From a virus, in IMG/VR virus record IMGVR_UViG_3300037357_000065, positions 1 to 45,755 of that record: a stretch of 45,755 bases of DNA; one strand, given 5' to 3'. Positions 13,279 to 45,755 of the stretch are shown here, piece by piece. The position numbers and the translations under genes were made by a program. The notes beneath the pieces were generated by a model. It made no database searches. It worked only from the letters and a program-made list of their open reading frames with translations, and was not told where the DNA came from. How positions within the stretch are numbered: position 1 is the first letter of the stretch; the number at the start of each line of letters is the position of its first letter.

Positions 13279-14352
13279 TTAAGACGTAAACACTCGCTTC
13301 ATCCTTGAGGCGACGTTCTTTTCGAGTTCGTCCCGGTTCTTCGCCGGCTTTTCTCCGCCAGGGTTCGCGCCCCGGCCGGATGGTTTTACGGAAAGTCCTT
13401 TATTCCGTTTTTGCAACTCACCGCGGATTTCCTCACGCGCGGCGCTGTTCTTGAACTTCGCGCTGATGGCGTCATGCGCCATCGTCAACGCTTCTTCAAC
13501 CGGCAACGTACGGCCCTGGAACGCGGCGCCGGCACAAAGCGCGTCGGCATATTCCAAAACCTGCCTGCGCGTCTCAATCTGCGCCTCAGGGAGTTTATTC
13601 ACAGGGCCATCCCCGTAGAACTCCTTGAATGGCTTCAACTCGACGCCGGCGAAAAATCCCTCGACTTGCTTGCCGAGTGTATCATTCGCCGCCTGATCGG
13701 TGCGCTTCTGCGCGGCCGTCACTTGGGGAAGAACCGCGTTAATGCGGTCGATCACACCATTTACCGGTCCGACGAGAACATTCAGGAGTTCGTCGTCACC
13801 ATACTTCTTTCGCAATTCCTCCATGTCGAGCTTTGCGAGCGCGCCTTGGGGGATTGCGGCGGGTGCTGCGGGCTGGGCGACCGGTCCGGTTTTGCCGGCC
13901 TTTGCCTGCCAGCCGAGTTCCGCCATCTTGGCGATCTCAGCATTACGAGTCTCATGCACCTTACGGGCGAAGGTCAGAAAACCCGTGCCCTGAGACTTGA
14001 ACGCCGATTTGATCTCATCATCAGACCACTCGGCGGCTTTCAAAGATCGAACGTATGCAGCCGGAAGGGTTGGGGCGCCATCAGCCGCAGCTTCGGTACT
14101 AGGTTCCTCTTTGGTTTCAGATGGCGCCTCATCCTCTTTCGGGGGCGCCTCATTTCGTTCATGCCGGGCCCCTTTACCGGCCGGCTTGTCTGGCGTGCCT
14201 TCAATGACGCCAGTTGACTCATCTTCCTTGTCAACCGTTCCCATTATCGACGCAAATTGATCGTCGATCCTGGATGCCAGGGCTGATTTGTCCTCAGTGG
14301 ACATCTTGGCTTTATTCGACAACACTCTCGTATCGTCAATATTCTCCGCCAT
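13279..14352 (-). CDS. Capsid scaffolding protein
   Basis: A 357-residue, highly charged, mostly helical protein just before the major capsid gene. Residues 40-95 are Glu/Lys/Pro-rich and disordered-looking. LPAAYVRSLKAAEWSDDEIK and GFLTFARKVHETRNAEIAKMAELG helices follow. The C-terminus is basic (MKRVFTS with several Lys/Arg before it), as in scaffolds whose C-terminal basic helix binds the capsid protein. GGAG precedes the ATG, and a strong minus-strand promoter with TATAAT lies 50-80 bases upstream. No protease gene was seen, so scaffold release rather than cleavage is inferred. Confidence 0.8.
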   Translation of the reverse strand: MAENIDDTRVLSNKAKMSTEDKSALASRIDDQFASIMGTVDKEDESTGVIEGTPDKPAGKGARHERNEAPPKEDEAPSETKEEPSTEAAADGAPTLPAAYVRSLKAAEWSDDEIKSAFKSQGTGFLTFARKVHETRNAEIAKMAELGWQAKAGKTGPVAQPAAPAAIPQGALAKLDMEELRKKYGDDELLNVLVGPVNGVIDRINAVLPQVTAAQKRTDQAANDTLGKQVEGFFAGVELKPFKEFYGDGPVNKLPEAQIETRRQVLEYADALCAGAAFQGRTLPVEEALTMAHDAISAKFKNSAAREEIRGELQKRNKGLSVKPSGRGANPGGEKPAKNRDELEKNVASRMKRVFTS

Positions 14353-23844: not shown

Positions 23845-23875
23845 GCGGGTCTGCCTTCATTCGCTAAATTAAATA

Positions 23876-23908
23876 GGGGCCGATACCATGTATGGCTGTA
23901 TCGGCCCC
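23876..23908 (-). promoter_or_regulatory. Leader hairpin of the late operon
   Basis: Perfect 11-bp arms (ggggccgatac / gtatcggcccc) with an 11-nt loop lie between the late promoter and the first gene; on the minus strand they are followed by TATTTAATTT. It could be an attenuator regulated by antitermination, or a 5' stabilising hairpin. Confidence 0.6.
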
Positions 23909-23994
23909 CAAGGTTTGCATCATGGGTAGGTCTCCGTTGATGCCCCCAGGTGAGACTACCACACTGGGTTGAAGTGCCTGTATGGCACCTATAT

Positions 23995-24023
23995 AGTGTA
24001 CCACACAAATGCCCCAATGGCAA
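23995..24023 (-). promoter_or_regulatory. Divergent late-operon promoter
   Basis: On the minus strand TTGCCA (24023-24018), 17-bp spacer, TACACT (24000-23995). A palindrome ctttaca-gtt-tgtaaag (24024-24040) abuts the -35 box and uses the same CTTTACA core as the iterons of the adjacent origin-like region, so a replication or regulatory protein could block or activate late transcription here. Confidence 0.65.
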
Positions 24024-24115
24024 CTTTACAGTTTGTAAAGATCAATATTTTTATTTGGTGGCGGGTGACTATCAACCTCCTCCCAGGTGGCGGGTGGCAG
24101 GGCCAAACGTCATAC

Positions 24116-24188
24116 CCGGCATAAACCCTACAACCGGCATAAACCCTACAACCGTCACAGGCGTTACAATCGTCACAGGCGTTACAAT
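24116..24188. repeat. Tandem 18-bp iterons
   Basis: Two copies of ccggcataaaccctacaa (24116-24133, 24134-24151) are followed by two copies of cgtcacaggcgttacaat (24153-24170, 24171-24188). Both units end in (C/T)TACAA, placing the same short box at one-and-three-quarter helical-turn intervals, as in iterons bound cooperatively by initiators. Confidence 0.85.
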
Positions 24189-24246
24189 CGTATCCTCCTA
24201 GGTGGCGGTCCGATAACCCGACGGTCCGATAACCCGGCGGACGACG

Positions 24247-24309
24247 GGCCGATCGGCGGGCAGTTGCTTGTCGGCGAATAGGGATGGGTCGCTTTGCCGC
24301 CGATCGGCC
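24247..24309. repeat. Inverted repeat in origin-like region
   Basis: Perfect 13-bp arms ggccgatcggcgg (24247-24259) and ccgccgatcggcc (24297-24309) with a 37-bp spacer; each arm also contains the palindrome ccgatcgg. It could extrude as a cruciform or bind a dimeric regulator. Confidence 0.8.
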
Positions 24310-24703
24310 GCCTTTACAAGTAGTCAAGATGTCGGCGAATAGGGTTGCTCTGAATCGGCCGCCTTTACAGGGATTGGCTGGGTTGTAAAGGCGTGTTAGG
24401 GTAAAGTACGTGGTTTTTACGCAACCTTTACAAGGACCTTTACAGGGGGTGGCTGTACCCTAACCCAGCCGTTGGATAGGTACCCTTATTATCAGCGTAA
24501 TATCCTTGTAAAGGTCCTCCTCTCTTTCTTACTTTCAACGTTCAAAGAGAAGAAATATATAGTATTAAACAGCCTTTACTAGGAGAGAAAGAGTAGACGG
24601 TATTTATTACTATCTATTTTTGTAACACAGAGAGAGACTTGAACTCGCCCCGTAACGCCTTTACAGCGGTATCAAGCGAATAATCGGGATGTATATTTCC
24701 GCT

Positions 24704-24732
24704 TTGACCGAATCGGGAATAGATGGTACATT
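24704..24732 (+). promoter_or_regulatory. Early promoter P1
   Basis: TTGACC (24704-24709), 17-bp spacer, TACATT (24727-24732). The spacer and flanks (GAATAGATGGTA) are shared with the promoter at 25535-25563. It is the first clear promoter after the origin-like region. Confidence 0.75.
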
Positions 24733-34623: not shown

Positions 34624-35538
34624 ATGCCCCCGCCCCCGGCTCGAAAGCCCCCGATGCCCGCAGGAATCAGCAAACCACCCCCTCCACCAGTGGCCGGCCA
34701 CACCCCGGCTGCGTTTACGATGGATGCGGTGGACACTACTGGCATCGGCAAGACCATCGTTTTGTATGGTAAGTCGGGTGTGGGCAAGACCACGTTGGCC
34801 AGCATGGCACCCGGCGCCCGCTTCATCCCTCTGGACGACGGTAGTAAGGACATCCTCCATCCGAAGACCGGCGCCAAGCTGATCGGCCTGAAGCGGCAGG
34901 ACAAGCTCGCGCTCACCTTCCAAGATGTGCGGGATGCTTTGCATAATCCAGATCTCTGGCCGGCTGGATCAACGTGTGTAATCGACACCGGCACGAAGCT
35001 AGAGACAATTGCCGAGAAATACGTCTTTGAGAACGTACCCGGCCCGGCGTCATGCCCGAAGTGCAAGAACATTGAGGACTACGGATACGGTAAAGGGTAT
35101 AAGCATCTGCTGGATGCTATGCGGATGATTCTTGGCGACCTGGACCGTCTCAAATCTACCGGCGTCAATATCATCATTCTGGCACAGCTTGCACAGGCGA
35201 CGGTGAGCAATCTTGCGGGCTTGGACTACTTGGAAGACGGGCCGAAGTTCTCTAACGCCAAAGCCTACCCCGTTCGTACAGAAGTTGTCGAGTGGGCCGA
35301 CCACGTGTTACGCCTGGGGCATGGAGATGTGTTGGTGGCGACGGCGAGCAAGGAGGCGAAGCGTGGCAAGGCGTCCGGCTCAACGGATCGGATCATCTAT
35401 ACTCAGCCAGAGGTTTACTACCTCGCCAAGAGCCGGCCCATCAATGGCAAGCATCTGCCACCCCTCATCAGTTTCGATGCCCCAGACAATGATTCGCTCT
35501 GGGACATGGTCTTCAATGGCAATATACCGGAGGCATAA
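34624..35538 (+). CDS. Sak4-like RecA-fold ATPase
   Basis: A 304-residue ATPase with AAGGAG before the ATG. A Pro-rich N-terminal 35 residues precede the Walker A YGKSGVGKTTLAS at about residue 50; a Walker B-like TCVIDTGTKLE is near residue 120, and NIIILAQLAQA and a DVLVATASKE strand follow. A CPKC knuckle (about residue 143) is unusual. The order of motifs fits Sak4-type single-strand annealing or recombination ATPases of phages, which usually act with an ssDNA-binding protein; that partner is encoded two genes downstream. Confidence 0.75.
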   Translation: MPPPPARKPPMPAGISKPPPPPVAGHTPAAFTMDAVDTTGIGKTIVLYGKSGVGKTTLASMAPGARFIPLDDGSKDILHPKTGAKLIGLKRQDKLALTFQDVRDALHNPDLWPAGSTCVIDTGTKLETIAEKYVFENVPGPASCPKCKNIEDYGYGKGYKHLLDAMRMILGDLDRLKSTGVNIIILAQLAQATVSNLAGLDYLEDGPKFSNAKAYPVRTEVVEWADHVLRLGHGDVLVATASKEAKRGKASGSTDRIIYTQPEVYYLAKSRPINGKHLPPLISFDAPDNDSLWDMVFNGNIPEA

Positions 35539-35930
35539 TGCTTCAGCCGCGCAACACCCTGGTCGTCGTCGAGTTGATTGAGAAGCAAGAGGATGTGGTC
35601 GGCAAGGTCGTCATCCCCAACAACAACGACATGTATACCCATGCAACGGTCGTCGCCATCGGTCCCGGCAACGTGTCCGCGGCTGGCGCCCGTAGCGAGA
35701 CCTTCGATCTTGCGGTTGGCCAAACCGTGCTGGTCAAGCACAAAGAGGGTCGTGCCGTGGGTGGGGGCCGGGTTGCCTTATCCGATCTTGGCGTCGAGTA
35801 CCGGGAGGATGGGAAGCGTTACAAGATTTTCGAGCAAACTTCCATCCTGGGCATTGTTGCCGAACCAGTGAAGTTCCCCGATCTGCCCCCCAGAATTGAC
35901 CGATCTGGAACGTGTAAGTATCTCTTATAG
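35538..35930 (+). CDS. GroES-like co-chaperonin
   Basis: A 130-residue protein. Its first 100 residues follow the Cpn10 pattern: LQPRNTLVVVELIEKQED at the N-terminus, GKVVIPNNND in the mobile-loop area, ATVVAIGPGNVSAAG, FDLAVGQTVLVKH, and a C-terminal YKIFEQTSILGIVAE strand equivalent to the GroES ending. A 25-residue Pro/Lys-rich tail is extra. Like T4 gp31 it could pair with host GroEL to fold capsid or tail proteins; no GroEL gene is present. The ATG overlaps the previous stop (TAATG). Confidence 0.7.
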   Translation: MLQPRNTLVVVELIEKQEDVVGKVVIPNNNDMYTHATVVAIGPGNVSAAGARSETFDLAVGQTVLVKHKEGRAVGGGRVALSDLGVEYREDGKRYKIFEQTSILGIVAEPVKFPDLPPRIDRSGTCKYLL

Positions 35931-37014: not shown

Positions 37015-37086
37015 GTGGTGATGGGCTAAGGATAAGTCACTGGCCGATTAAAGCCGGAGATGCGGGTTCAAGGCCCGTTCACCACA
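37015..37086 (+). tRNA. tRNA with 8-nt anticodon loop (identity uncertain)
   Basis: Seventy-two bases fold as a cloverleaf: acceptor GTGGTGA/TCACCAC (7 perfect pairs), D-arm GGCT/AGTC with loop AAGGATA, anticodon stem CTGGC/GCCGG, variable loop AGAT, and T-arm GCGGG/CCCGT with loop TTCAAGG. The anticodon loop CGATTAAA has 8 bases rather than 7, so the anticodon is ambiguous (UAA if the first U is U33). CCA is not encoded. Eight-base loops are known in +1 frameshift suppressor tRNAs. It could also be a defective or specially modified tRNA. The primase gene starts 8 bases after its 3' end. Confidence 0.75.
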
Positions 37087-37094
37087 CTACGCCA

Positions 37095-39416
37095 ATGGCA
37101 ATTGACTTTGCAAAGCTATCCGACAAGTTCCGCGGCAATGCGGTTTGGGGAATCGCGGAGCATTTAGCTAACCGGCTCAATGTATCCGTCGATTCCTTGG
37201 ACCGACTTGGCCTTGGATACGTTCCAATTATTGAACTTAGTAAGGGACCGAACTACGGTGGATTTTTTTGCTTTCCTCAACGCGATGCAGATGGCCTTAT
37301 CACTGGCATCAGTCTTAGGGGCCGTGATGATTTTAAGTGTATGTATCCTGGCTCAAAGCTGGGCCTATTTTACGAAGTCAATCCGGAGCATCGTCAGGGA
37401 GTCAACACCAACTATGACCCCGGACCCCAAAACTGGGTTAGAGCCGACAGCGATCACATCTGCCCCGTCTGCAATCAAGGAAAAGGATGTCTGATATCCA
37501 CCCCTGACTGCGGCCTTCCGGCCGCGGCAATCTGTGTCAGAGTGAAAGAGGGCGCGAGCCGGCCCATGCTGAACGGCTACTTGCATCATCTTGATGGTCA
37601 AGACGCTGCCGACCAGACCGCTTCCCCGCTCCCCCCATCCGAAGGTAGCGTCCTCATTGTGGAAGGCGCCAGCGATGTAGCCGCGGCGATGGATATGGGC
37701 TTTGTTGCGGTCGGTAGGCCCAGCGCCCAAGGCGGTATCCAGCTTCTCCCCGACCTAATACGGGGCCGGCAGTGCATCATCATTGGGGAGAACGACCAGA
37801 AGAAGGATGGAAAATGTCCCGGCCGGGAGGGGATGTATGCAACTTTTGACGGCATCAAGCGCGCCGCCAAGGGTGTTCGCATGGTCATGCCCCCACCTGA
37901 AATCAAAGACCTTCGGGCATGGCGGGCCAAGCACAGACTTACTAAGGAACAATTCCTTGAATACGTCGCCGCGAAGGGCATGGATCAAATCGACAATGCG
38001 GTTTTGCCTGACGATATGCCGACAACTATTGCGCGACGATTCCTCGCGGATTTGCACCGGCTGGGTGGCCGGCTTACGTTACGTCGTTGGGGCGGCGAGT
38101 GGTATATTTACAACGGCACCTGCTACGAACGCCTCGATAACGAACGATTCCTCGCACCGATGTATCAATGGGCTTACGGCAAGCTCGTGGCGGTGCCGAC
38201 AGACAAGGGCCAGAACTTCATTCCTCTCAAGATGAAAACCCGCCTCCGAGGCGACGTGGCCGAGGCTGCTATTTCCGAAACCCTGGTGCCAGAGAAGGTG
38301 CTGCCCGTGTGGATCAATAACACTAATGGTGACAGTATTAAGGATTTAATCGTCTTCAAAAATGGGGTGTTGAATGCCCGTAAGTTTCTCGCCGGCGTCA
38401 TCGAATCAGTTAGTTTTGCGGAACCGACACCAGACTTCTTTACTGTGTCGTCGCTCCCTCATCTATTCGACTCCACCGCTAAAGCCCCCAAATGGGAATG
38501 GTTTCTTAACTCAACTCTTGGCGATGATCCAGACAAAGTGGCGCTCTTGCAGGAATGGTTTGGTTACTGTCTGGTGCCGGATACGAGCCTGCAAAAAATG
38601 ATGTTCTTCCGCGGCCCTCCGAGCGCCGGCAAAGGCACGATCCTGGCGGTACTGCGATGGATGATCGGCGACGATCAGAGTGCCGTCGCCACCTTTGACG
38701 GATTGGCCGGCCCGTTCGGTCTCGCGCCCCTGGTTAATAAACTCGTCTGCGTCCTGGGCGACGTGCAGACCCCCAAGGGTGCCGACGCAAATCGTGGGCT
38801 TGAAGTTCTCCTGGGCCTTACCGGAGAGGATAGCGTCACAATCAATCGTAAGAACGTCGCGCAAATCCCCCTCCACGATTTATACTGCCGGATAACGATG
38901 GCGGCAAATAGGTTCATCGACGTGCCAGACCACGCCGGGGCTATGGCTCGGCGACTCAACATCATCGACTTCACACGATCCTTTAAGGATAGCCCAGACA
39001 CGACGCTTCGTGACTCCCTGCGTGATGAGATTCCGGGGATCATCATCTGGTCCCTAGCCGGCTTGAAGCGAATACGTGACACGAAAAAATTTACAACCCC
39101 TCGTACCAGCCGACTTGCTTTAGATGAATGGAGACTGTATACTTCTCCAATCGCCGGCTTCCTTGAAGAATGCTGCCGGCCAGACCCGGAGGAACGTGAG
39201 AGTCAGGTTGAGCTATTCGATTGCTGGGTTAAGTGGTCTGAGGAGCGGCGTATATCGCCCATGCCCAGCCCGCGGTTTTATGAGGGTGTGCGATTTGCGG
39301 CGCCTTACACGACGGCCATTACCGAGGAATCAGCGGGTCGGATTACGAAGTATTTTGACGGACTGCGGTTACGATCCAAAGTGGCGAAACAATTTCTTGG
39401 GAGACCAGAACGATGA
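37095..39416 (+). CDS. Primase-helicase (TOPRIM plus SF3/D5 type)
   Basis: A 773-residue fusion. N-terminus: a CPVC zinc knuckle at about residues 123-126 with more Cys at 132, 139 and 147; TOPRIM LIVEGASD (187-194) and IIIGEND (238-244). C-terminus: SF3 helicase with FFRGPPSAGKGT (Walker A, about 504-515), LVCVLGDVQ (Walker B), and ITMAANRF (motif C, about 590-597) followed by RRLNIIDF. It would unwind the template and prime synthesis for the family A polymerase. No Shine-Dalgarno is visible: the ATG is 8 bases after the tRNA, so tRNA 3' processing would leave an almost leaderless mRNA. Confidence 0.88.
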   Translation: MAIDFAKLSDKFRGNAVWGIAEHLANRLNVSVDSLDRLGLGYVPIIELSKGPNYGGFFCFPQRDADGLITGISLRGRDDFKCMYPGSKLGLFYEVNPEHRQGVNTNYDPGPQNWVRADSDHICPVCNQGKGCLISTPDCGLPAAAICVRVKEGASRPMLNGYLHHLDGQDAADQTASPLPPSEGSVLIVEGASDVAAAMDMGFVAVGRPSAQGGIQLLPDLIRGRQCIIIGENDQKKDGKCPGREGMYATFDGIKRAAKGVRMVMPPPEIKDLRAWRAKHRLTKEQFLEYVAAKGMDQIDNAVLPDDMPTTIARRFLADLHRLGGRLTLRRWGGEWYIYNGTCYERLDNERFLAPMYQWAYGKLVAVPTDKGQNFIPLKMKTRLRGDVAEAAISETLVPEKVLPVWINNTNGDSIKDLIVFKNGVLNARKFLAGVIESVSFAEPTPDFFTVSSLPHLFDSTAKAPKWEWFLNSTLGDDPDKVALLQEWFGYCLVPDTSLQKMMFFRGPPSAGKGTILAVLRWMIGDDQSAVATFDGLAGPFGLAPLVNKLVCVLGDVQTPKGADANRGLEVLLGLTGEDSVTINRKNVAQIPLHDLYCRITMAANRFIDVPDHAGAMARRLNIIDFTRSFKDSPDTTLRDSLRDEIPGIIIWSLAGLKRIRDTKKFTTPRTSRLALDEWRLYTSPIAGFLEECCRPDPEERESQVELFDCWVKWSEERRISPMPSPRFYEGVRFAAPYTTAITEESAGRITKYFDGLRLRSKVAKQFLGRPER
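39115..39143 (+). promoter_or_regulatory. Possible internal promoter P8
   Basis: TTGCTT (39115-39120), 17-bp spacer, TATACT (39138-39143) inside the primase gene; it could drive the nucleotide-metabolism and downstream genes. Confidence 0.45.
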
Positions 39417-42497: not shown

Positions 42498-45400
42498 TTA
42501 TCTCTTTTTCGGCACATGCCGCTTATTGAATCCGACCGCTTCTATCGCCTGTTGTTCTAGTGGCTCCGGCGGAGTCAATCCGAGGGTCGGTTGAATCGCA
42601 GTCGGCAGCACTTCTTTCGCCGCCATCTTGGCGGTTCCCTCATTCGGTTCAAATAGACTCTTACCCCGCGTCTTTTTACCCTGGAAGTCACGGCCCTCGT
42701 AATATTGTCGGGCCATCGACGGGACCGGCGCAAACCGATCCTCCGCCCATTTTACCACGTCTCCACCGGCATAAGCCAGCGCGATGACCGGTCCCATCGG
42801 GCCAGCCGGAAGCGTCCAGCGTCCCAAGCCGAACACATGAGGATGGAAGAAGTCCTCGGCGCTCTGGGGTAATTTACCAGTGGATACTGTGTTCATTACC
42901 CCACCCGCCAAGGCTGCGGCAAGTAGATGTCCGGCAACCGCTTGTTGCGCCGGCGAGAGGTTGGTTGTCTTCAACAACTCCGGTACATCCCCCGCGGCTC
43001 GGCCGATCAATTTGAACGGGTTGGTAGTCCAATGCGGAAACGCTAAGGCTTCCCGCAGCGCCAGTTGCACAGCTTTACTCTGGAATTCACGGCTGTCTTT
43101 CAGGTTACTAAATGAATAGTTAACAGCCTCTACAACCTTTTTTGCCTTGGCTATGACCTCCGGGTCGGTGGGGCTTAATCCTTTCCGACTCGCGTCATTC
43201 AGTACATCTTGCAGGCCCATGAATTGAGCGCCACGTCGGGCATTCTCCCCGACATTCTCAAACAGCATCCGTTTGGCAGCGCGGTTGATAGATGCCGGAT
43301 TCTTGAAATTGGTTTTCTCTGCCTGTCCTTTGAATATATCTGGGGTCTCAGGAATGCCGCCGGCCTTCGCGGCCAGTTGAACCCGTGATTCCATCGGAGT
43401 ATTTGGATTGCCAAACGCCTCTTTAGCGGCCCCGCCTTCATGTACCGCTTCCGCCAATCCGGTTCCCGGAATTGCCTGCCGAAGCGCCTTGGCGGTTTCC
43501 ATCAATTGTCCGTGTGTAAGACTTTGGATGGCGCGTCCCAATCGTAGGCCGGATGCCGATTGGGAAAAATTCATGTAGTGGGCGCCTTGCAAGCCTAACT
43601 TAGTGGTGATGATCGCTCGATTGGTGGAGTCAATCGCTTTCACGAATGGATTTTGCGGATCGACCGGCGACGGTTCCATGCCCTTATTGAAGATGTTCGC
43701 TACTGCCTTATCAGCGACGTACCGCGGCCGGTCGGCTTGTGCCAAGGCATCATCGACTAATCCGTGCTTTTCCGGCACCCGGCCAGCTTCATAGGTCGGA
43801 TGGTATTCACCCGTACCCGGCTCAGTAAATTCAGTCTTCGCGCGTGTCTCTGTCTGTCCCTTGTTTTTGCCGGCTTGTATTACCTGCTCGTAAGGGTAAT
43901 CGGCTTCGCTTTGATAATGCTCCTGCAATTCGTCCGGCGAAGCGGGCGGCAATTCCTGCACCGTCCCACCCTTTATTCCTTGTCGGAACAACGCAAGTCG
44001 AGTCTTCAACGGCGTATCCTGATTGTTCAGTTTATCAAGTAATCCGCCTTCATTTGTCGCCGACCATTTGCGTTGTGGAGGTTGAAATAATTTATCCCGT
44101 AGCGCCTGCTCATTCGGCATCTGCTGGTCGCCAAAGTCGAGTTTGCGAATGAGGCCGGCACGCACCGCGCCTTTCGCCATACGGGAAAAATGAACATACT
44201 TCATCGCATCGACACGTTTAACAATGGCGGTCACGAGGGGATTCTCGTGCATTGGCGCCATTCCTTTCGCGGCGAGGACGTTCACAAAATCCTCATGCCC
44301 ACCTGTCAGACTTCGGCTCTTTATAACATGCCCAATCGGCGCCAAACCTCCTGGGCCACTTCCTTCCGGCGCCTTATACCCGAACTCATAAGGCTTTTTT
44401 CCGTTCTTGTCGATCATACCGGCAGACCGACCCATTTGATCTTCATTCCAATGTTGCGCACCAGGAATGTTTTCACGAATTCCATTCCGTTTGACAGCGA
44501 CTCCATCCTCATGCCATAATGCGCCAAGATTACCGAATTTTGGATCGGATGGTGCTTGATGGGCCTCGATCTCATCTACGAGTCGGTATACGTCCTTCGC
44601 CCGGCCCGACTGTATCATCTGGTTTGTCGCGTCAATGTATGGTTTGTATGCCGCGGCGCGACGGAAGCCACCCAAATTACTCGTATCATTCGCCAGTTTT
44701 ATAATATCCATTGCACGGACAACATGGGTGCTGCGTCCAAGATTGCCGCCAAAGAATTCGCCGATGGAATTACCGGCCTTTACTGCCATACCCCCCATTA
44801 TGTCCTTTGTCGTGCGCCCAGCATTGAGGACTAGATCGTGGGCTCTTTTAACATCGAATCCACCACCTTCATCGGACCATAATTTTTGAAGCCATTTTTT
44901 TGTGGATGCGCCGAATGTGTCTTTTGGCACATCTTCTTTAGGGACGGCGCGGGTGACGGCCGCGGTCACTTGTTCCGGCGTGCGTTCTGCCGGCGGCTTG
45001 GCGGCTTCTTTCGCCTCTTCGGCTGGTGTCTGTACTTGTGTAGGAGTCCCGGCCTTTTGTTCCGCTGGTGTCGCTTCATCGGGTACAGGCGTACCCGCCA
45101 TCCCTTCGGGGGTTTCGAATGTTGCGTCCTTTGTTGGGTCTGCAATTGGCACCGGCGCCGGGGCGATTCCCCGACGCTCTACTCCTCCGGCGGCAAGGTA
45201 TTTATTCTGTACTTGTCCTATCGCGTCGGCATTCGCTTGCCGTTGTTCTGGGGTTAAACCGCTCCTTATTTTCTCGGCTAGTGCGCGCCGCGGATCAAGT
45301 AACGGTGATGATTCGGGCACCGGCTGTATTTGGGCGGCAACATCTTTGAATGGCGGATTGGCTGGCACTGGCCCTTTGCTGGTTGTGCCGAATCCGCCCG

Positions 45401-45755
45401 GACCGTCGGTTGTTTGCACGCGCCGCGGATCAAGTAACGGTGATGATTCGGGCACCGGCTGTATTTGGGCGGCAACATCTTTGAATGGCGGATTGGCTGG
45501 CACTGGCCCTTTGCTGGTTGTGCCGAATCCGCCCGGACCGTCGGCACCAGTGTCCTCGTGCAGTATGTTAGGCCGGGGCGGTGTCGCGGGAGCCGGCATC
45601 GGTGCCGGAGTCGGCGCAGGTGTTGGCACGCGCCGCGGATCAAGTAACGGTGATGATTCGGGCACCGGCTGTATTTGGGCGGCAACATCTTTGAATGGCG
45701 GATTGGCTGGCACTGGCCCTTTGCTGGTTGTGCCGAATCCGCCCGGACCGTCGGT
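42498..45755 (-). CDS. Giant internal virion-type protein, C-terminal part (continues at 1147-1)
   Basis: Residues about 341-1425 of the 1425-residue protein that begins at 1147. First come two further copies of the 41-residue repeat, then Pro/Ala/Glu-rich linker with a LTPEQRQANADAIGQVQNKYL helix. Large helical domains follow: NSIGEFFGGNLGRSTHVVRA, RKLDFGDQQMPNEQALRDKL, AHYMNFSQSASGLRLGRAI, NVGENARRGAQFMGLQDVLN, ALAFPHWTTNPFKLIGRAAG, HLLAAALAGGVMNTVSTGKL, and WTLPAGPMGPVIALAYAGGD near the C-terminus. The pattern resembles large internal or polyvalent proteins injected with phage DNA (a LPD38-like C-terminal region is a guess). No lysozyme or protease motif was found. It is 2 bases upstream of the holin-like gene. 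Confidence 0.75.
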   Translation of the reverse strand, partial: TDGPGGFGTTSKGPVPANPPFKDVAAQIQPVPESSPLLDPRRVPTPAPTPAPMPAPATPPRPNILHEDTGADGPGGFGTTSKGPVPANPPFKDVAAQIQPVPESSPLLDPRRVQTTDGPGGFGTTSKGPVPANPPFKDVAAQIQPVPESSPLLDPRRALAEKIRSGLTPEQRQANADAIGQVQNKYLAAGGVERRGIAPAPVPIADPTKDATFETPEGMAGTPVPDEATPAEQKAGTPTQVQTPAEEAKEAAKPPAERTPEQVTAAVTRAVPKEDVPKDTFGASTKKWLQKLWSDEGGGFDVKRAHDLVLNAGRTTKDIMGGMAVKAGNSIGEFFGGNLGRSTHVVRAMDIIKLANDTSNLGGFRRAAAYKPYIDATNQMIQSGRAKDVYRLVDEIEAHQAPSDPKFGNLGALWHEDGVAVKRNGIRENIPGAQHWNEDQMGRSAGMIDKNGKKPYEFGYKAPEGSGPGGLAPIGHVIKSRSLTGGHEDFVNVLAAKGMAPMHENPLVTAIVKRVDAMKYVHFSRMAKGAVRAGLIRKLDFGDQQMPNEQALRDKLFQPPQRKWSATNEGGLLDKLNNQDTPLKTRLALFRQGIKGGTVQELPPASPDELQEHYQSEADYPYEQVIQAGKNKGQTETRAKTEFTEPGTGEYHPTYEAGRVPEKHGLVDDALAQADRPRYVADKAVANIFNKGMEPSPVDPQNPFVKAIDSTNRAIITTKLGLQGAHYMNFSQSASGLRLGRAIQSLTHGQLMETAKALRQAIPGTGLAEAVHEGGAAKEAFGNPNTPMESRVQLAAKAGGIPETPDIFKGQAEKTNFKNPASINRAAKRMLFENVGENARRGAQFMGLQDVLNDASRKGLSPTDPEVIAKAKKVVEAVNYSFSNLKDSREFQSKAVQLALREALAFPHWTTNPFKLIGRAAGDVPELLKTTNLSPAQQAVAGHLLAAALAGGVMNTVSTGKLPQSAEDFFHPHVFGLGRWTLPAGPMGPVIALAYAGGDVVKWAEDRFAPVPSMARQYYEGRDFQGKKTRGKSLFEPNEGTAKMAAKEVLPTAIQPTLGLTPPEPLEQQAIEAVGFNKRHVPKKR
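45284..45755. repeat. Coding tandem repeat, 127-bp core units
   Basis: Three 126-127-bp near-identical cores at 45284-45410, 45419-45544 and 45629-45755 (the last equals 1-127) encode the 41-residue module DGPGGFGTTSKGPVPANPPF continuing to SPLLDPRR. Linkers between units are 8 and 84 bp; the 84-bp linker also follows the core at the left end (128-211) with few changes. The contig ends lie in this array, so copy number may be larger in the real genome. Confidence 0.95.

Follow-up and report, generated by a model that had tools for sequence, protein, structure and literature searches.

The origin of phage P4 contains short repeats, as does the region described here. Phi29-type phages have a control region at a divergent early/late junction, again as here, and boxes at the late promoter, which in phi29 are bound by the p4 protein. 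In phi29 there are few p4 sites and they do not belong to an origin, unlike the present candidate array, and no relative of p4 stood out in the window. The P4 initiator, the alpha protein of the ori/crr system, is a single primase-helicase polypeptide of the TIGR01613 family with a C-terminal winged-helix origin-binding domain. The origins of PICIs have two sets of iterons that flank an AT-rich region (PMC6092414), and the D5-type Cch2 and the SaPI Rep bind short iterons through the C-terminal domain (PMC7581432). The SCCmec Cch2 origin is served by a D5_N helicase, and the C-terminal domain of Cch2 binds very short repeats (AAGTG) (PMC7581432).

The window, the whole stretch of 45,755 nucleotides analysed here, contains a candidate origin that resembles that of P4 in its putative initiator, a single TIGR01613 polypeptide with a predicted C-terminal winged helix. 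It differs from P4 in the sequence of the boxes and in the N-terminal part of the primase-helicase, which in the model folds like a DnaG/TOPRIM primase. Furthermore, the phage is 45.6 kb in size and encodes a family-A polymerase of its own, and its candidate origin is located at the early/late junction, a long way from the initiator gene. With PICI and SaPI elements the window shares element-specific iterons, a D5/P4-family initiator and, as a weak likeness, short iterons that flank an AT-rich tract on both sides (PMC6092414, PMC7581432). In those elements the origin lies just 3′ of rep, whereas the array at 24.0–24.7 kb is about 12.5 kb from the primase-helicase gene. That gene extends to 39,416, overlapping the one that follows at 39,413. 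Because the region is not next to rep and belongs to full phages, we keep it apart from the PICI type. The D5_N helicase is common to the window and the SCCmec Cch2 origin; unlike the window, the latter has only three repeats, adjoins its gene and sits in a chromosomal cassette.

Genome organisation

The virus record that makes up the window is complete and circular. Its first and last 127 bases (at 1/45,755) are identical, giving a genome of 45,628 bp, and relatives span the circular junction. No near-identical match was found among the phage records searched, and no relative of the primase was found in the bacterial genomes searched. The late genes (terminase, portal) are on the minus strand to the left of 23.85 kb; the early genes, which encode a family-A polymerase, an exonuclease, a Sak4-like protein, a GroES-like protein and the primase-helicase, are on the plus strand to the right of 24.8 kb. 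The box region sits between these divergent operons.

The GroES-like co-chaperonin (35,538–35,930) lies inside the replication operon and is also found in G014 and L013. Directly upstream of the primase gene is a tRNA gene (37,015–37,087) with an odd anticodon loop, to which ARAGORN assigns no amino acid (‘atta’). A minus-strand ORF of 1,071 amino acids (42,498–45,713) has no PHROGs match. Two near-identical genes (26,702–27,478 and 28,416–29,249) carry a long tail of Ala-rich repeats, encoded by repeated GCC codons; the pair matches phrog_4433 weakly, and the first copy also matches DUF7666. A relative is present in G025, and L029 has a similar Ala-rich ORF.

The CTTTACA boxes and the AT-rich block

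The heptamer CTTTACA occurs nine times in the genome, on both strands, and all copies are within 642 bp (24,024–24,665); none is found elsewhere on either strand. Two copies form the palindrome CTTTACA-gtt-TGTAAAG (CTTTACAgttTGTAAAG, 24,024–24,040). The other seven extend to CCTTTACA and are located on the plus strand at 24,311–24,318, 24,362–24,369, 24,425–24,432, 24,437–24,444 and 24,658–24,665, and on the minus strand at 24,384–24,391 (TGTAAAGG on the plus strand) and 24,507–24,514. All the elements that the initial annotation had listed in about 650 bp are present. The overlapping ORFs are short and without support as genes.

In whole-genome Markov simulations the largest 7-mer cluster per 650 bp was 4–5 (order 1) or 4–8 (order 3), and 200 dinucleotide shuffles of the region itself gave a maximum of 4 versus the 9 observed. 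Among control windows along the genome, six or more copies of any 7-mer were seen in repeat-coding DNA and otherwise in a single window, at 1,051. The GCC codon repeats of the two Ala-rich genes give the genome its only denser 7-mer clusters. On the basis of the shuffles and control windows we rejected chance repeats. The idea that the boxes serve as −35 elements in a row of promoters was likewise rejected, since no −10 was seen by eye at 16–18 bp and none was returned by a scan.

An AT-rich block at 24,525–24,624, a candidate DNA unwinding element, has the lowest stability of all 100-bp windows in the genome (−1.140 kcal/mol per step; −1.253 for the next). Intergenic DNA tends to be AT-rich, and stability is therefore not decisive by itself. 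Eight exact boxes are on one side of the block and one (24,658–24,665) is on the other, early side; a variant box, CCTTTACT, is inside it at 24,573.

The region also contains longer repeats. The exact 18-bp pairs at 24,120/24,138 and 24,153/24,171 are parts of a single degenerate tandem array on the plus strand (24,105–24,194), with about five units in the window and about three in close relatives (counts read from the alignment); the comparison here is with the conserved 17–22 bp direct repeats of iteron plasmids. A 16-bp tandem pair, CGGTCCGATAACCCGr (24,206/24,222; 24,206–24,237, plus strand), is absent in close relatives. A perfect 13-bp inverted repeat (24,247–24,309) has arms at 24,247–24,259 and 24,297–24,309, and further direct repeats are at 24,269/24,330 and 24,303/24,354. 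The lower number of 18-bp units and the lack of the 16-bp pair in close relatives make the longer repeats resemble recent local duplications. Thus the 18-bp iterons first described exist, but their copy number differs between close relatives, which makes the short CTTTACA boxes the better candidates for functional sites; as judged from the alignment, the 18-bp units are probably secondary.

Close and distant relatives

Six close relatives (L056, L057, L058, L028, L025 and L024), with flanking genes mostly 91–97% identical, were aligned through the region. The palindrome is unchanged in all five that reach it (L056, L057, L028, L025 and L024). The spacers change but most of the boxes are retained: columns within boxes are kept in 37/42 and 44/49 cases versus 70–77% for neighbouring bases (p 0.01–0.02). 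The box at 24,311 is present in L057 and absent in L056, that at 24,437 is not conserved, and that at 24,507 retains its 7-bp core. The contigs of L024, L025, L028 and L058 end inside the box/iteron region, which points to strain variation or repeats.

More distant loci were found through the terminase (46–71% identical). At the matching divergent junction, upstream of their terminase genes, they have an AT-rich tract and clustered short boxes of different sequence. None of 200 shuffles reproduced the clusters of TTGAATTAG (AATTCAA) in L033, TGTTACC (GGTAACA) in L045, TGTCTAG (CTAGACA) in L048, TGTCTTG (CAAGACA) in L044 and TGACCGGG (CCCGGTC) in G025. Weaker clusters were those of CTGTAAG in L029 (6-mers, 0/200 shuffles) and GTATAGA in G026 (2/200). 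No significant 7-mer box cluster was found in G014, which has the unstable tract, or in G017 (marginal), though both have the primase. Within the fetched DNA, stability is lowest in or at the array in the window and in L026, L027, L029, L033, L045, L048, G014, G025 and G026. Boxes flank the least stable tract on both sides in the window, L057, L045 (5/5), L048 (6/4) and G025 (7/10).

The conserved layout with lineage-specific boxes speaks against both chance and DnaA or another host factor. Were the binder a host protein with one fixed site, boxes that differ so widely would be left unexplained; a phage protein that changes with the box could account for them. A DnaA-bound origin was also rejected on direct inspection, as exact matches to TTWTNCACA occur in the genome only at 13,595 and 18,476, none of them in the array.

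In G026 (L084, 6,892–7,460) the AT-rich tract is also surrounded by four CAGAGCCA copies, in addition to the GTATAGA boxes. An early gene near the array encodes a DUF7178 protein in L044 (2,541–3,212) and L048 (1,785–2,444).

The candidate initiator

The initial annotation had recognised no known initiator family among the genes. One is in fact present: the product of the plus-strand gene at 37,095–39,416, a P4-family primase-helicase with a DnaG/TOPRIM-like N-terminal part, D5_N and a DUF5906 helicase part, matches TIGR01613 (primase_Cterm) with 146.5 bits (E 8e-43), above the curated cut-off of 108.7, and also matches D5_N and DUF5906. The structure model was built from eight sequences and has low confidence in the helicase part; its N-terminal part has a DnaG-like primase fold. 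The last ~90 residues (682–770; codons 39,138–39,404) are modelled as a winged helix with pLDDT of ~80–90. This domain matches the crystallised origin-binding domain of P4 (1ka8) with Z 9.4 (2.6 Å, 83 residues) and the RFX DNA-binding domain with Z 11.6 (1.6 Å, 76 residues); moderate Z values may stem from a common fold. The 1ka8 match is more telling, since it covers the whole domain, in the same protein family and at the same position in the chain. When the C-terminal domain was used for a profile search of the PDB, the sole match was weak, to 7ola ‘DNA primase’ (E 0.056).

Between the window and the other lineages the C-terminal domain is 19–38% identical and the helicase core 38–55%; by sequence comparison the putative origin-binding domain diverges faster than the core. 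Of the distant records, five (G014, G016, G017, G025 and G026) are long enough to contain the primase, and it was found in each of them. The early proteins kept in G014, G017, G025 and G026 are the polymerase, exonuclease, Sak4, e15, primase, a MazG-like protein and x2, and the primase-helicase is the only one with precedent as an origin binder. It is probably this protein of the phage itself, the primase-helicase, that recognises the CTTTACA repeats.

Probable replication origin and alternative readings

The region is probably a replication origin of the satellite (P4/PICI) type, at which the primase-helicase would bind the boxes, melt the AT-rich tract and load, with a possible effect on late transcription. 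The original proposal of an origin-like region is thus supported in part: AT-rich tract and boxes recur at the junctions of distant relatives and a P4-type initiator gene exists, while the points on initiator family and 18-bp iterons needed correction. We infer the following course of origin firing. Several primase-helicase molecules, made from the early operon, would bind the CTTTACA boxes via the C-terminal winged helix and melt the adjacent AT-rich tract (24,525–24,624). The protein would then load itself as helicase and primase, and the phage family-A polymerase would extend. The box pair at the late −35 could let the primase-helicase act on the late promoter too.

Cumulative GC skew, which the initial annotation had suggested as a check, gives no independent support. 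The detrended minimum at 25.4 kb coincides with the coding-strand change and the 4-fold degenerate sites of the genome show no replichore pattern, so the skew is uninformative. In the isolated phages Carvaje and Proteus PM-CJR, which have P4-family primases, no such array was found beside the least stable DNA; the layout is therefore not a rule for the P4-type initiator family.

The boxes could instead be operators only, with a phage early regulator switching early to late transcription and the AT-rich tract being ordinary intergenic DNA. The regulator might be e4, a short protein (25,929–26,507, plus strand) with what looks by eye like an excisionase-type helix-turn-helix, or another helix-turn-helix protein. 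The strongest point for operators is the distribution of e4, which matches that of TGTAA-type boxes exactly, both being confined to two lineages, the group of the window and L029; the palindrome abutting the late −35, boxes abutting promoters in L029 and L033, and unrelated helix-turn-helix proteins near the arrays of L033 and G014 also fit. Yet e4 is not found in G014, G017, G025 and G026, and we rejected it as a universal binder because the majority of lineages yielded no copy of it; the structure model of e4 (pLDDT 43) is too poor for use. No regulator common to the lineages was found, whereas the primase is common to them, and most boxes surround the DNA of lowest stability in the genome, well away from all promoters. 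We regard operators alone as unlikely. A division of labour, with an origin bound by the primase-helicase overlapping the operators of a separate transcription regulator, would account for the palindromic pair at the promoter (spacing 3), which differs in form from the boxes surrounding the AT-rich tract, most of which stand singly; but the same 7-bp box is used in both places and one binder is simpler, which leaves two proteins improbable. More doubtful still is a packaging (pac/cos) or recombination site beside the terminase genes. The region is ~2 kb upstream of terL in the window and its close relatives, whose contigs often end in it, but contig ends are expected at repeats and the 127-bp end repeat of the window is far away. 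We know of no form of pac or cos site with arrays of boxes on both strands around a low-stability tract.

If the preferred reading of a P4/PICI-type origin is correct, it would give a testable origin and initiator for an uncultivated phage lineage and would place a satellite-type origin in full-size phages. The relatives would then offer a natural series of related initiator–box pairs for studying changes in origin recognition.

Promoters and late transcription

The leftward late promoter (23,995–24,023, minus strand) is extended sigma70-like, TTGCCA-17-TACACT with TG before the −10 (−35 at 24,023–24,018, −10 at 24,000–23,995), and is identical in relatives. The palindrome, described at the outset as touching the late −35, does indeed abut TTGCCA. 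The early promoter (24,704–24,732, plus strand) is TTGACC-17-TACATT, also with TG before the −10. By reading of the sequence, boxes abut TTGACA-17-TATACT in L029 and TTGCGT-17-TATAGT in L033. As boxes adjoin the late −35 in three lineages, coupling of the array to late transcription is plausible. Since the candidate origin lies between divergent operons and a palindrome adjoins the late −35, an initiator bound there could set late transcription; activation and repression of the late promoter are not distinguishable from sequence. It is less likely, but conceivable, that one initiator binds one array that serves as both origin and late-promoter switch, the start of replication toggling late transcription, with DNA-binding domain and box co-diversifying fast between related phages. 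A box at the late promoter would offer a simple route into the long-standing question of what links late transcription to replication.

The late leader RNA (23,845–23,990, minus strand) is strongly structured (z −3.4), with a 13-bp hairpin and others, and could be an antitermination or stability element. Its promoter-proximal part is nearly unchanged in close relatives.
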